Source of the DNA: Alphaproteobacteria bacterium
GTDB taxonomy: Bacteria; Pseudomonadota; Alphaproteobacteria; Caulobacterales; Aquidulcibacteraceae
Direction: 5' to 3'
DNA: 33,654 nucleotides
Assembly (NCBI GenBank): GCA_027488965.1
Contig: JAIYAO010000042.1
Span: 1 to 33,654 of the forward strand
Shown piece after piece: positions 19,614 to 25,860 of the stretch; position 1 is the stretch's first letter; every line of letters begins with the position of its first letter. A program made the position numbers and the translations under genes. The notes under the pieces are model-generated. The model had not been told where the DNA came from. It saw only the letters and a list, made by a program, of their open reading frames with translations, and searched no databases.

Positions 19614-21263
19614 TCACAGCTGCACGATGCGCGGCGCGCCGTGCGTGGGCGGGCGCTCCACCAGCAGCGCGGTGAGCGCCCAAACGAGCGCATCGGCGCG
19701 ATCGCGCAGGCCTCCATTGCTCAGGCCCCCATTGCTCAGGCCGCCGCCATCGCCCGCCGACAGCGCCATCAACTCCTCCTCCAGCGCCACGAACGCCGCG
19801 CAGTGCGTGATGCGGCCCTGTTCGTAGAGCGCAGCCACAGGCTCTGCGCGCACGCGCTTGCCGTCGCGCGCGTGCACGAGATGCACCGCGCACGGCGCCT
19901 CGGCGCTGGCGAGCGTGGTGCGCACCATGGCGCCGCCCTGGTTGGCTTCCGCGATGATGCGGCGCGCGCCGAACTCCGCCGCGGCCGCGGCCACGCGCTG
20001 CGCCCAGCCGAGCGGCGAGAGACCGCGGGCCGTGCGATCAGCCAGCACGAAGCCCTGCCGCCCCACGCGCCCCGCCACCACGATGCCGCACGCCGCGCCC
20101 TCCTCCCCCGCCGGGGGATCGACCGCCACCACCACCTCGTCGAACGCCGGCGGCGCCGCCCCGCGCGCGGCGATGAAATCCTTGGCCCGCCACAGCGCGC
20201 CATCGTTCTCCACCATCACGCCGCCCAGCTCCTGCGCCGCAAAGCGCGTGCCGCCGTAGAGATCCTCGAGGCCATCGAGGAACGCGGGCGCAAGGTGGGC
20301 GGCGTTCGCCGCGGTGGGCGCCTGCGTGGTGACGGTTGAGCCTTCGGCGCGCAGCTGGCGCAGCGCCGCGATCGTCTTCGGCGTCGTCGTCACCACGAGG
20401 CGCGGCGCCGATCCGCGGCGCAGCCCCATGCGCAGGATGCGCAGCGTGTGCGCGGGATCCTTCCACGCGCAGAACTCATCGGCCCACGCGTGATCGAACT
20501 GCGGCCCGCGCAGACGCTCCGGCTCCTGCGCGGAAAACGCATACGCCACCGCACCGCTGGCGAACACGAGCCGCTGGCGGCCCGCCTCGAACCGCGGCGG
20601 CGCCCGATGCGGCAGGTGCGCGAGGCCAGAGGGCCCGTCGACCATCACCTCGCGCACATCGCGCAGCGTGGCGCCGATGAGCGCAATGCGCACGTGGGCG
20701 CCTTCCGCCGCCCGCGCCGCGATCCACTCCGCGCCCGCGCGCGTCTTGCCCGCGCCGCGCCCGCCCTGGAACAGCCACGTGCGCCACGCGCCCTCCGGCG
20801 GCACCTGCGCGGCGTGCGCGACCGTGCGCCAGCGCGCGTCCGCCTCTTCGGGGGTGATGTCCGACGGCGTCTCCTGTGGTTCAACCGCGCGCGCAAAGCG
20901 CGTCTTCGAAATATTGTTGCGCGAACGCCAGAGTGCGAACGTGCCTTTGTTGAGGCCATGGAGTTCGCAGACGACCGAGTCGGTGTCGCCCGCCAGCCAC
21001 TGCTTGACCGCCGCCTCGTAGGACTCGCGCGGCCGATGGATGCGCTTCAGGATCGGCCCGCGCACGGCGGGCGCAGCGCCCGTCTGGCGCCGCTGCAGGC
21101 CGCACTCGCCCGCGCGCTTGTAGATCGCGCTCATGCTCATGCCGATGCGCTGCGAGATCGCCGACGCGCTTTCGCCCGCGGCGTACGAGGCCATGGCGTC
21201 CTGCCACTCGGCCTCGCTGAAGAGGCGGAACGGTTTTCGTGGAGAGGGGGATGTGTGTGTCAT
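19614..21263 (-). CDS. Gene-transfer-agent/phage-type large terminase with N-terminal HTH extension
   Basis: A 549-residue DNA-packaging terminase. The ATPase has Walker A GGRGAGKT (about residues 167-174) and Walker B HAWADE (Asp262, Glu263). The RNase H-like nuclease has VVVAVDPPAGEEG (Asp382), RIIAEANQGG and DRADALVWA. These features match the DNA-packaging-protein-gp2-like terminases of alphaproteobacterial GTAs. Unlike the usual ~430-residue protein, about 145 residues precede the ATPase. They contain two helix-turn-helix-like segments (FSEAEWQDAMASYAAGESAS.., then YEAAVKQWLAGDTDSVVCEL). This could be a fused small-terminase-like DNA-binding part. No portal, protease, capsid or tail genes follow. 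The start may be this ATG or an in-frame GTG at 21290. The C-terminus has a GGLSN tandem repeat. Confidence 0.85.
   Translation of the reverse strand: MTHTSPSPRKPFRLFSEAEWQDAMASYAAGESASAISQRIGMSMSAIYKRAGECGLQRRQTGAAPAVRGPILKRIHRPRESYEAAVKQWLAGDTDSVVCELHGLNKGTFALWRSRNNISKTRFARAVEPQETPSDITPEEADARWRTVAHAAQVPPEGAWRTWLFQGGRGAGKTRAGAEWIAARAAEGAHVRIALIGATLRDVREVMVDGPSGLAHLPHRAPPRFEAGRQRLVFASGAVAYAFSAQEPERLRGPQFDHAWADEFCAWKDPAHTLRILRMGLRRGSAPRLVVTTTPKTIAALRQLRAEGSTVTTQAPTAANAAHLAPAFLDGLEDLYGGTRFAAQELGGVMVENDGALWRAKDFIAARGAAPPAFDEVVVAVDPPAGEEGAACGIVVAGRVGRQGFVLADRTARGLSPLGWAQRVAAAAAEFGARRIIAEANQGGAMVRTTLASAEAPCAVHLVHARDGKRVRAEPVAALYEQGRITHCAAFVALEEELMALSAGDGGGLSNGGLSNGGLRDRADALVWALTALLVERPPTHGAPRIVQL
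19701..19745. repeat. 15-bp tandem repeat in the terminase gene
   Basis: Two near-identical 15-bp units (19716-19730 and 19731-19745, unit beginning ATTGCTCAGGCC) follow a third, diverged unit (19701-19715). They encode GGLSN-GGLSN-GGLRD just before the last nuclease acidic motif. Unit number could change by slippage without a frameshift. Confidence 0.8.
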
Positions 21264-21766
21264 GCCCCGATGATGGGGCCGAACCGTCACCCCCCGGATT
21301 GGAGGGCGTGTTTTTGGTCGAAACCCCTTTGAAACCGGCGTTTCGGACGGGGATAAGGCGTGTCACTATCCTCCTATTTTCTCCGTTTCCGCGGTCCGCG
21401 AGGGCAGCGCGTTCGTGCAGCGGCGCCCATCAGCGCCCTTTCCCCGGCCCGCACCGCGAACACCCCACCCGTCGCGCGCTCACGCGCGCGCCACCCTCCC
21501 CATCGAGGGGAGGGAGACCTGGCGGCGTCACCGCGCGATCACGGGCGCAACCGTCCCAAGCACAGTCACCCTCCCTCCCCTCGATGGGGAGGGTGGCCTG
21601 AGCATAGCGAAGGCCGGGTGGGGCGCGCGCGGGATGATGGGGCGAATGGAGCGAGAGGAAGGCTTGTTCAAGCAGCGACGCCCATCCGCGTCCAGCCAAA
21701 CAGGACCCAGTTGCACCGTCCGAACAGACAAAGTAGGGACGGCATTGCGATGGCTGGGGAGATATC
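21264..21766. other. Intergenic region with no supported gene
   Basis: About 500 bases between the terminase start and the following membrane protein. ORFs here are short, Arg/Pro-rich shadows. The middle is occupied by a large palindromic repeat (separate entry). The bases from about 21640 to 21760 presumably hold the promoter of the downstream gene; I could not assign its boxes. Confidence 0.6.
21463..21623. repeat. Composite intergenic palindromic repeat
   Basis: Two arms of 27 bp (21490-21516 and 21571-21597) are perfectly inverted, with a 54-base spacer. Each arm is itself partly palindromic around ATCGAGGGG / CCCCTCGAT. An outer 9-bp pair (21463-21471 and 21615-21623) frames them. The sequence GCATAGCGAAGGCCGGGTGGGG at the right end resembles intergenic repeat families of high-GC alphaproteobacteria. 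It could fold into a very stable hairpin in either transcript. Confidence 0.75.
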
Positions 21767-22477
21767 GTGTTTTCGGGGACACTAAGCCGCGATTTCGTCG
21801 CGGCCTACGGCGGCTTGGCGAAGGTTCTGGGCATCGCGCTCGGCGCAGTCGCCATCTTCAACTGGCTCATGCGGGCCTTTACGCTGTCACCGAGCAGCAT
21901 TCTGGAAGCGCTGCTCACCGCCTATCATCAAATTTTCGACCCGCTGTTTGAGGTCCTGTTCGGCTGGCTGCCCTTCGCTATTCCGCCCGAATGGAAGGAC
22001 GGGCTGGTCTTGTGGGTGGTGCTTGGCGGCGGCGTGGCGCGGTCGCTCTGGATCCTCAGGCAGACACAGATCGAGACCGAAGACACCGATGAATCCGAGA
22101 GCAGTCTGCTGCTGCCCAAGAACCTGATCCTTTTCGCACTCGTGCTGGTTGTCGCGAACCTTCTGTGGCCCCTTTTTCTGCCCGCGATGTTCATGGCGCC
22201 ATTCGTGTATCGCGCGACCGTTCACCACTATCGAGAGGAGGAGCGGTTTGGGGGCATATTCGGCGGCGTGTTCGGCACCACGCAAAAGCTGGCGCGCAAG
22301 AGTAGTGTCACCGTGGCGCGAAAGACACTTGTGGAGTCCAACTGGACGTCCGGTAAGACGAAGGTTCTCCACGACATGGAGTACAAGTTCGACCTGCGCA
22401 TGGTCTGGTTCTTCCAAGTGGTCGGCCTCGTCGTGGCCAGCGCCGTGCTGGTGCTGGCAAATGCCGCCTCCGCATAA
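21767..22477 (+). CDS. Membrane protein of unknown function
   Basis: A 236-residue protein with about four to five hydrophobic helices: near residues 15-40, 78-95, 118-142 and 215-234. After the first helix comes ILEALLTAYHQIFDPLFEVLFGWLPF, then AIPPEWKDGLVLWVVLGGGVARSLW. The central soluble stretch (about residues 145-205, YREEERFGGIFGG...VARKTLVESNWTSGKTK) is basic. I do not recognise the family. The start is a GTG (21767) preceded by GGGGAG about six bases upstream; an overlapping ATG at 21750 is in another frame. The 57 bases after the stop (22478-22534) separate it from the gyrB remnant on the other strand. Confidence 0.78.
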   Translation: MFSGTLSRDFVAAYGGLAKVLGIALGAVAIFNWLMRAFTLSPSSILEALLTAYHQIFDPLFEVLFGWLPFAIPPEWKDGLVLWVVLGGGVARSLWILRQTQIETEDTDESESSLLLPKNLILFALVLVVANLLWPLFLPAMFMAPFVYRATVHHYREEERFGGIFGGVFGTTQKLARKSSVTVARKTLVESNWTSGKTKVLHDMEYKFDLRMVWFFQVVGLVVASAVLVLANAASA

Positions 22478-22534
22478 GCTTGGGGTTAAGTGATATCTCG
22501 GGACCAAGTGTAATACTGCCCAGCCAGCGCCTCA

Positions 22535-22705
22535 CTATACATCCGCCGCTGCATCCGGCACGTCGTCCAGATTGAACGCACACCGCAGCTCTACCAGGTC
22601 GCCCACAAGCTGTGTGAAAGGTTTGTCGGCGTGGGTCGGCATTCACCTGCAGCAACGTACGGATTTGGCGATCTAGCGTGGCATTCCAGAGCTGGTCGCC
22701 GTTCA
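22535..22705 (-). pseudogene. Duplicated, frameshifted gyrB 3'-end fragment
   Basis: On the minus strand this segment repeats the last ~59 codons of the intact gyrB (23404-23583). The first part reads NGDQLWNATLDRQIRTLLQV against [20 protein letters not shown]. After a frameshift around 22625-22642 it continues DKPFTQLVGDLVELRCAF..., ending AAADV-stop, against [18 protein letters not shown]..., ending AAVDV-stop. The nucleotide match is clear but imperfect, so the copy is old or came from another strain. Its first bases supply the stop codon of the DUF5615 gene. It cannot encode a functional gyrase part. Confidence 0.88.
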
Positions 22706-23059
22706 ATCCGCCAGGGGCCGGATGCGTGCCGTTGTCCAGTTGATGACAAGCACCGAACTCTCGAGGTCGTTTGTCGCCTGTATCGCCTCGATGACGCGCT
22801 GGGCGACGCGCGGCCAGTCCCGACCTTTCAGCCGCAGCAGGACGTAGCCAACGGCCGGTTGTCCGCTCCGCAGGATAAGCTCGCCGAAGTCACGGTCCTG
22901 CGCGATCACGATGCGGCCTTGCGCCACCGCGGCCGCAAGCACGGCGTCATCGCTCGCCGACCGCATGGTTTCAACGCTGCGGACGATGTCGAACCCGGCA
23001 CGCTCCAGTGCGTCAGCGACAGGATCGGGACAACTTTCGTCGGCGAGAAACCTGTACAT
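22703..23059 (-). CDS. DUF5615 family PIN-like toxin
   Basis: A 118-residue protein with the DUF5615 (Mut7-C/PIN-like) pattern. FLADESCP opens with the first acidic residues, SASDDAVLAAAVAQGRIVIAQDRDFGELI carries the central acidic cluster, and VLVINWTTARIRPLAD closes it. Members are the predicted RNase toxins of type II-like pairs whose partner is a DUF433 protein, as found 67 bases upstream here. The acidic residues expected for metal binding (Asp7, Glu8, and SDD and DRD further on) are present, so it looks intact. Its TGA stop lies in the first bases of the gyrB-like fragment, so the duplication junction is exactly at its end. Confidence 0.85.
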   Translation of the reverse strand: MYRFLADESCPDPVADALERAGFDIVRSVETMRSASDDAVLAAAVAQGRIVIAQDRDFGELILRSGQPAVGYVLLRLKGRDWPRVAQRVIEAIQATNDLESSVLVINWTTARIRPLAD

Positions 23060-23126
23060 GAAGCGCCCCGGTTCGGTTTGACGCGTGCAGCGGTCACGGC
23101 GTTCCGGTTACCAAAGTGTTTCGAAG

Positions 23127-23354
23127 CTATTCGGCCGCAGTGAGACCTTCGTGGCTCAGGTAGTGTGCGGCATAGGTGGCGGCGGCGCGGACATCTTCGA
23201 CGCTCAGATGGCGGTGCCCCTCGATGATCTCGTCTGCCGTGAGGCCCTCGCCGAGGTACTCTAGGATCAGTTCCACGGTGATCCGTGTACCCTTGATGCA
23301 GGGCTTGCCGCTCATGATGGCGGGATCGCGGGAGATGCGGTCGAAGGCGTTCAT
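23127..23354 (-). CDS. DUF433 family antitoxin
   Basis: A 75-residue protein with the DUF433 signature: RISRDPAIMSGKPCIKGTRITVELILEYLGEGLTADEIIEGH, then LSVEDVRAAATYAAHYL. DUF433 is a small winged-HTH-like domain and the usual antitoxin/repressor partner of DUF5615 toxins. It starts 49 bases after the gyrB stop on the same strand and precedes the toxin gene by 67 bases, the antitoxin-first order common for such modules. Confidence 0.88.
   Translation of the reverse strand: MNAFDRISRDPAIMSGKPCIKGTRITVELILEYLGEGLTADEIIEGHRHLSVEDVRAAATYAAHYLSHEGLTAAE

Positions 23355-23403: not shown

Positions 23404-25860
<2,457 letters not shown>

Follow-up and report, generated by a model that had tools for sequence, protein, structure and literature searches.

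The large terminase gene in the window, by which we mean the whole 33,654-nt stretch of DNA that was analysed, is no lone relic: Caulobacterales carry a family of solo terminases to which it belongs. Judged from comparisons of the gene, its relatives and their genomic settings, what we describe is probably a maintained family of terminases derived from gene transfer agents (GTAs), with exchangeable putative DNA-recognition heads, rather than a stray gene. The two additional copies in the same genome, the family and the exchange of heads were not foreseen by the first-pass annotation of this DNA.

The reading frame encodes 549 amino acids if translation begins at an ATG, and 558 if it begins at an upstream GTG (features are collected in Table 1). 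Pfam assigns Terminase_6N (E 1.8e-29) and Terminase_6C (E 6.8e-21), both far over the cut-off, and together with the Walker A and Walker B motifs and the D-E-D nuclease residues these identify the protein as a large terminase (TerL); the Pfam matches and the motif alignment bear out the annotation's reading of the ATPase and nuclease motifs as intact. The N-terminal part, which we call the head, matches HTH_23 slightly over the cut-off (E 2.2e-6), with residues 94–125 as the best stretch; Pfam coordinates are counted on the 558-residue form. In an AlphaFold model (23-row alignment, mean pLDDT 83), the two helix-turn-helix (HTH)-like segments already noticed in front of the ATPase appear as two three-helix units, both tied by low-confidence linkers to a complete TerL fold, the best PDB match of which is the large terminase of phage D6E (Z 28.3, rmsd 4.9, 364 residues). 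The head alone has as PDB neighbours the DNA-binding domain of Caulobacter GcrA (Z 6.8), the Tc3 transposase (Z 6.0) and the small terminase of phage G20C (Z 4.9). All of the head's matches lie under Z 8, too low to tell kinship from a shared, generic HTH fold. Modelling of the N-terminus, which had been proposed as a check, has thus delivered the two HTH units, and structural matches that are all generic. On this model the protein has the N-terminal HTH domain of a small terminase, as a predicted and generic fold; in the place of a small terminase's helical oligomerisation and TerL-binding region, it shows the low-confidence linkers.

Table 1. Features of the solo terminase and its gyrB neighbour, in window coordinates
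Feature	Coordinates	Strand	Details	Basis
Solo large terminase with tandem HTH head	19614..21263	-	549 aa	ORF, Pfam, AlphaFold, trees
HTH unit 1	21105..21215	-	residues 17-53, three helices	AlphaFold
HTH unit 2	20919..21029	-	residues 79-115, three helices	Pfam HTH_23, AlphaFold
ATPase domain (Terminase_6N)	20175..20771	-		Pfam, alignment
Walker A	20742-20765	-	GGRGAGKT	alignment
Walker B	20475-20480	-	DE	alignment
RNase H-like nuclease domain (Terminase_6C)	19671..20126	-	D382, E439, D521/D524	Pfam, alignment
gyrB	23404..25815	-	neighbour of the solo terminase	named by sequence reading

As had been claimed, the terminase stands alone: by tblastn, we found no portal or capsid gene within the window. 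Nor is there a complete GTA cluster next door, an outcome that the first-pass annotation had allowed for: the genome of the window (G000; 200 contigs, 3.28 Mb) holds only one portal match, on a different contig from the window terminase, and an HK97 capsid was not found anywhere in it. The gene is not, then, a cluster terminase set beside its portal. Nor does it look like the terminase of a prophage, with no portal or capsid nearby, housekeeping neighbours (from gene calls), and 203 matching phage records that all fall below 60% identity. The recommended search for GTA genes in the rest of the genome turned up no capsid, but it did find a cluster reduced to a scar on contig C173 (L002 5227-6906), in which portal residues 1-285 are joined out of frame to gp15 from 1087 onward and in which there is a second frameshift. 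The scar is flanked by penicillin-binding-like and DnaJ-like proteins, the same pair that flanks the GTA cluster of genome G001; the junction may reflect either a real deletion or an assembly error. Two further solo terminases lie at C57:6639-8267 (61% identity) and C151:322-1575 (66%); all three copies are open and motif-complete, and their surrounding genes are non-phage as far as can be read from gene calls. A groEL neighbourhood is common to C57 and to contig C1 of G042, but the distances differ.

Some smaller features of the locus are recorded here in their own right. Between gyrB and the terminase, a short frame (22308-22706, minus strand) resembles the C-terminal end of gyrB and, by that likeness, is perhaps a partial gyrB duplication; two small genes at 22703-23354 (minus strand) resemble what we take to be a DUF5615/DUF433 toxin-antitoxin pair. 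Inverted palindromic repeats adjoin the terminase at 21450-21640 (by reading), and similar ones appear to lie within the reading frames of terminases in G042 and others.

We searched 398 genomes of the order with 11 solo terminases as queries and obtained members in three bacterial families; a second search, of 101 genomes of genus g16, yielded more. Fifty-four loci were treated as the family, 53 of which have neither portal nor capsid in the fetched stretch; the other, L217, has both and was rejected as a cluster terminase. As a control on this criterion, 76 cluster-type loci were screened, and 68 had a portal and 58 a capsid. A careful tree built on 76 terminase domains (33 solo, 43 cluster; G101 was left out, its Walker A having missed the search pattern) places the solo rows in one clade (100/95) that recurs in 100% of 200 bootstrap trees; shuffling of the labels gives an expectation of 24.8 label changes. 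A second careful tree, with 42 cluster rows and solo rows thinned to 35 (11 newly fetched), again has one solo clade (100/94; 99% of 200 bootstrap trees). A quick 78-row tree (26 cluster-type rows plus L217) did not recover a single solo clade: solo rows of families f1 and f2 joined one Asticcacaulis row, f3 rows lay apart, and the forks between were unresolved. The position of the solo clade beside Caulobacter/Brevundimonas cluster terminases is weakly supported (81/68 in the first careful tree, 89/75 in the second). The solo terminases are nested among Caulobacterales GTA terminases, in trees that held no phage terminases; the best phage-record match of the window terminase has 45% identity over 77% of the query, versus 47-62% for the Caulobacterales matches listed. 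From these trees, the solo terminases are probably of single origin and derived from a Caulobacterales GTA. Among the viral-contig matches listed (80 loci), just two (L235 and L243) match before query residue 130, and both are ordinary GTA clusters without a solo-type head; none of the 50 plasmid records checked covers 80% of the window terminase.

The sites occupied by solo copies recur between species, with neighbours named by sequence reading. In 11 of 33 compared loci, from genera g1 and g11, gyrB lies upstream of the terminase (the window, G001, G002, G036, G134, G139, G152, G203, G267, G272 and G277). A site with polA and an HI0933-like gene is common to G058a, G074, G376 and G385, a ferredoxin/ftsY site to Brevundimonas intermedia and G225, an rpoH site to G034 and G171, and yet another site to G058b and G281. 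Such shared sites argue for inheritance versus mobile insertion, and point to much vertical inheritance. That the window terminase had merely been split from a cluster by a contig break was considered and rejected: the window contains 33.6 kb of other genes, and the recurring gyrB neighbourhood also rules out such an artefact.

The catalytic part appears, from substitution patterns, to be mostly under purifying selection. Walker A, Walker B and the nuclease D-E-D positions are kept in all 34 members first aligned; the first Walker A glycine is changed in G101, and the Walker A pattern was matched in 19 of 20 later-fetched loci (L217 included), the altered one being G413, which missed the search pattern and was left out of the head/motor comparisons. 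By the Nei-Gojobori method, omega of the catalytic part is 0.096-0.244 in 14 of 18 pairs, 0.375 for G074/G376 and 0.39 for G001/G002; a further, partly overlapping set of 13 pairs spans 0.10 to 0.47, with five pairs at 0.30-0.47. These results bear on selection at the Walker and nuclease residues in relatives, which the first-pass annotation had wished to see examined. Values are 0.13-0.20 among the capsid-less genomes G036, G267 and G277. Bearing in mind that G036 retains an open cluster TerL of its own family's kind beside a partial portal, in addition to its solo terminase, GTA loss there may be recent and the constraint may predate it.

These data bear on whether the gene is in decay, left over from a GTA or prophage that was lost, a reading that we regard as quite improbable and that is disfavoured among the options first listed for the gene. 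Decay would be in keeping with the scarred and frameshifted portal-gp15 remnant, with the omega of 0.54 and 0.45 between the window copy and its two paralogs, and with damaged or fragmentary copies in other genomes: matches run over stop codons in G034, G139, G152, G171 and G277, and also in G434, G453 and G424. The stop lies in the head region in the first five and in G434; in those five, the open frame begins below it, and the first HTH may be lost. Terminase fragments also occur among the matches, and the damaged ones may include both solo and cluster type. Against decay stand the three open, motif-complete copies in one genome, the purifying selection in most pairs, and the lack of any copy with such a head among the 80 viral-contig loci listed. 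In a family whose motor stays constant while heads are exchanged, as described next, the solo gene has the appearance of being retained and functional, not fossil.

A second line of evidence comes from the heads. By DNA comparison of close relatives, the head is shown to be replaced as a block at fixed sites between species, with the motor unchanged. At the site that they share, B. intermedia and G225 are 97% identical in catalytic DNA and 97% downstream, and 83-100% over about 0.7 kb upstream (divergent farther out), while their heads are 55% identical; the motor of G448a is 92-93% identical to these two, yet its head is 93% identical to that of G225. The pair G299/G456 has 96% identity in the catalytic part, 90% upstream and 99% downstream, with heads at 57%, and the head of G448b is 90% identical to that of G456, so that each of these trios is a mosaic. 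G058b and G281 repeat the pattern (catalytic 92%, head 56%, upstream 90%, downstream 94%), and in sliding plots identity drops inside the ORF and is regained on both sides. For B. intermedia/G225, dS is 0.68 in the head versus 0.07 in the motor; synonymous divergence being raised too, the head has been replaced by a diverged version and not altered by point mutation. Forty-nine pairs have a catalytic amino-acid identity of at least 78%, and 14 of these have catalytic DNA at least 0.88 identical; the heads of the 14 fall in two groups, nine at 0.65 or below and five at 0.81-0.93, in pairs that share members and hence are not independent. In G379, G433 and G462, the measured head window sits in or before a separate ORF. 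Heads of the same type have omega 0.28-0.42 (G225-G448a, G448b-G456, G376-G457, G203-G272, G267-G277), or 0.69 in the case of G385-G440. Most of eight control pairs of cluster terminases have no internal identity drop; the control is imperfect, in that L021/L022 and L048/L055 also drop to about 60-70% upstream. Type I restriction systems, with a constant enzyme and an exchanged DNA-recognition part in HsdS, offer an analogy; the likeness lies in the exchanged recognition part, and no methylase was seen at the solo loci.

Could the head serve the gene itself? It would then recognise a sequence within or close to the gene, and GTA particles would preferentially carry, and so spread, the terminase locus. 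We find such selfishness improbable. Several copies in some genomes, sites that differ between lineages, and the occurrence of solo terminases in three families, with the f1 cluster terminases placed in another part of the tree, would all suit it; the vertical inheritance indicated by sites common to species does not, nor does presence of the gene without capsids, nor do the heads, which have no unusual synonymous conservation (G225-G448a: dS 0.147 in the head, 0.131 in the catalytic part).

What the head derives from is suggested by a sister subclade of nine loci in the quick tree (the G042 type), eight of which (L124, L125, L212, L214, L215, L216, L218, L219) have an HTH frame directly upstream of TerL; no such frame was called at L213. 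These separate ORFs hold an HTH plus a helical-looking region, and that of L124 matches PHROG 1206 (phrog_1206, terminase small subunit; E 1e-4, 111 residues). In addition, a cluster-type GTA terminase in G043 (L094, minus strand) is directly preceded by a 157-residue small-terminase-like frame with an N-terminal HTH. Since small-terminase-like ORFs occupy this upstream position, the solo head is, on gene arrangement, most likely a small terminase that has been joined to TerL, either whole or as its DNA-binding part alone, which lends support to the earlier idea of a built-in small terminase. An HTH model has a match in 43 of 53 solo-family rows (L217 counted among the 53) and none in the other ten, of which G346, G373 and G434 have no HTH by eye either. 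Within 900 bp upstream of cluster-type TerL, the same model matches at 1 of 101 loci, and there in a separate frame, so the extension is not a common property of canonical GTA terminases, as the first-pass annotation had conceded it might be. The small terminase of RcGTA, gp1, apparently has no N-terminal DNA-binding domain, according to the accessible part of its description (PMC6854486).

As a side observation, a free-standing protein with an HTH and a helical part, weakly resembling small terminases, is encoded at G000:C200:1390-2058 (L193) and at L194-L199 and L128; it lies near a lepA-like gene (by reading) in seven of these eight loci, L195 being the exception. Within f1, strong matches to it occur only in g1 and g11, with one weak match in g6; solo terminases in f1 are confined to g1 and g11.

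The relation of solo terminases to GTA clusters is twofold. In G001, G002, G042 and G058, gene calls describe a GTA cluster that runs from portal to capsid to gp15 without a terminase, and all full-length terminases are solo ones; in G171, G232 and G372, a GTA capsid is present and the sole TerL match is the solo one, among three candidates scored in the case of G232 and G372. Where the cluster lacks a terminase and solo copies are the only full-length ones, these probably package in trans, to judge by gene content. The other side of the relation emerges from 60 genomes of f1 (capsid threshold E 1e-30 or better). A GTA capsid is present in 38, among which the cluster TerL is unbroken in 33, frame-split in 2 and absent in 3. 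All three of the last hold a solo terminase, versus 5 of the 35 others (Fisher p 0.007), and an unbroken cluster TerL occurs in 33/38 genomes with capsid and 1/22 without (G036; p 1.6e-10), figures that overstate independence, as the genomes are related. Solo copies are as frequent with capsid (8/38) as without (6/22; p 0.75), and genus g11 has them in 6/15 and 5/15, respectively, so that the solo gene and the particle are uncoupled in f1. This decoupling is tempered by shared ancestry, by incomplete genomes (among the capsid-less, G277 is at 82%, G286 at 65% and G291 at 57%) and by possibly recent losses; cluster TerL pieces persist in capsid-less G028 (partial, open frame), G013 (contig end), G029, G032, G221 and G252. 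A CcGTA-type promoter model matches 24/76 cluster TerLs and 0/32 solo ones, but 0/4 terminase-less clusters too. Two further sightings are noted for themselves: a cluster TerL split over two frames despite a GTA capsid (G033:C1:822989-824207 and G229:C115:7217-8393), and a genome of genus g16, G370, with a GTA capsid but no TerL match among 13 candidates scored.

Two single-purpose accounts may be set against these observations. One is a purely split GTA, in which the solo gene is a relocated GTA terminase that works with the heads of GTA particles alone. It draws on the four terminase-less, yet otherwise complete-looking, clusters, and on the Brachyspira GTA, for which one terL away from the cluster is reported in the accessible portion of that study (PMC9662315); we consider it rather unlikely, given that five capsid-bearing f1 genomes (G134, G139, G152, G203, G272) have a solo copy alongside an unbroken cluster TerL, that the solo gene persists in 6 of the 22 f1 genomes without capsid, and that the trees keep the solo rows apart from the f1 cluster terminases. 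The split GTA of the first-pass annotation fits those four genomes. The other account is a machine independent of GTAs, a site-directed nuclease-translocase acting, for example, versus invading DNA, with the head swapped in an arms race. Equal f1 frequencies with and without capsid fit it, as they fit the earlier suggestion of a recruited terminase, and so do head exchange with dS raised in the head only and the finding of no constant partner gene among four neighbours per side at the 33 loci compared. It too seems fairly unlikely: three proteins submitted to PADLOC matched no model of a known anti-phage system, no modification or immunity partner was seen, omega is higher in the window genome, and the terminase-less clusters suggest a packaging role.

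We lean, somewhat beyond an even chance, to a site-directed family of GTA-derived terminases that outlives its particle and is re-targeted by head exchange, the role being one that we infer from the comparisons above. The head would bind a particular DNA sequence and bring the TerL nuclease and motor there. Where a GTA cluster has lost its own TerL, the solo protein would act as the packaging motor in trans and its head would set the start of packaging; in genomes that have lost the GTA, that of the window among them, the protein would persist and cut or move DNA at its site with no capsid. Head exchange suggests that selection may reward a changed DNA target. A further formulation, which we put forward only tentatively and think somewhat unlikely, is a capsid-free, site-directed nuclease-translocase for DNA processing or defence, its target reprogrammed by horizontal exchange of HTH heads, that can also drive GTA packaging where required.

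The solo terminases resemble RcGTA gp2 and CcGTA GtaT in their ATPase and nuclease, and their clade adjoins the Caulobacter/Brevundimonas GTA terminases; unlike these, they lie outside the cluster, are sometimes an extra copy, carry an HTH head and occur also without capsid. With phage and GTA small terminases (PHROG 1206; RcGTA gp1) they have in common the frame with an HTH and a helical-looking region that precedes TerL in the G042-type loci; the difference is that the solo head forms one protein with TerL and is exchanged from species to species. Split GTAs as such are already known: RcGTA genes are spread over five loci, and the putative terL of the Brachyspira GTA lies outside its cluster, as the accessible text has it (PMC9662315), whereas CcGTA starts with its terminase gtaT, by the accessible part of its report (PMC11150451). 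The Brachyspira case resembles the solo family in having terL away from the structural genes and a proposed packaging role; it differs as a separate GTA lineage with a single terL copy, and the accessible portion of that paper describes no head or head exchange (PMC9662315). We came upon no account, in literature drawn mainly from openly accessible journals, of a GTA terminase that is solo, bears an HTH head or exchanges heads.

Published descriptions have GTAs package host DNA with no preference for sequence (PMC6854486). With a GTA-derived terminase whose DNA-binding head is retained and exchanged, a bacterium would be able to direct packaging or cutting to sequences of its choice. Two questions become testable: can GTA packaging be directed, and what is the fate of packaging motors once the particle is lost? 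Solo copies in the single-contig genome G139 and in B. intermedia VKM B-1499 (L058) make experiments practical. If true, the capsid-free reading would give bacteria a re-targetable DNA-processing or defence enzyme.
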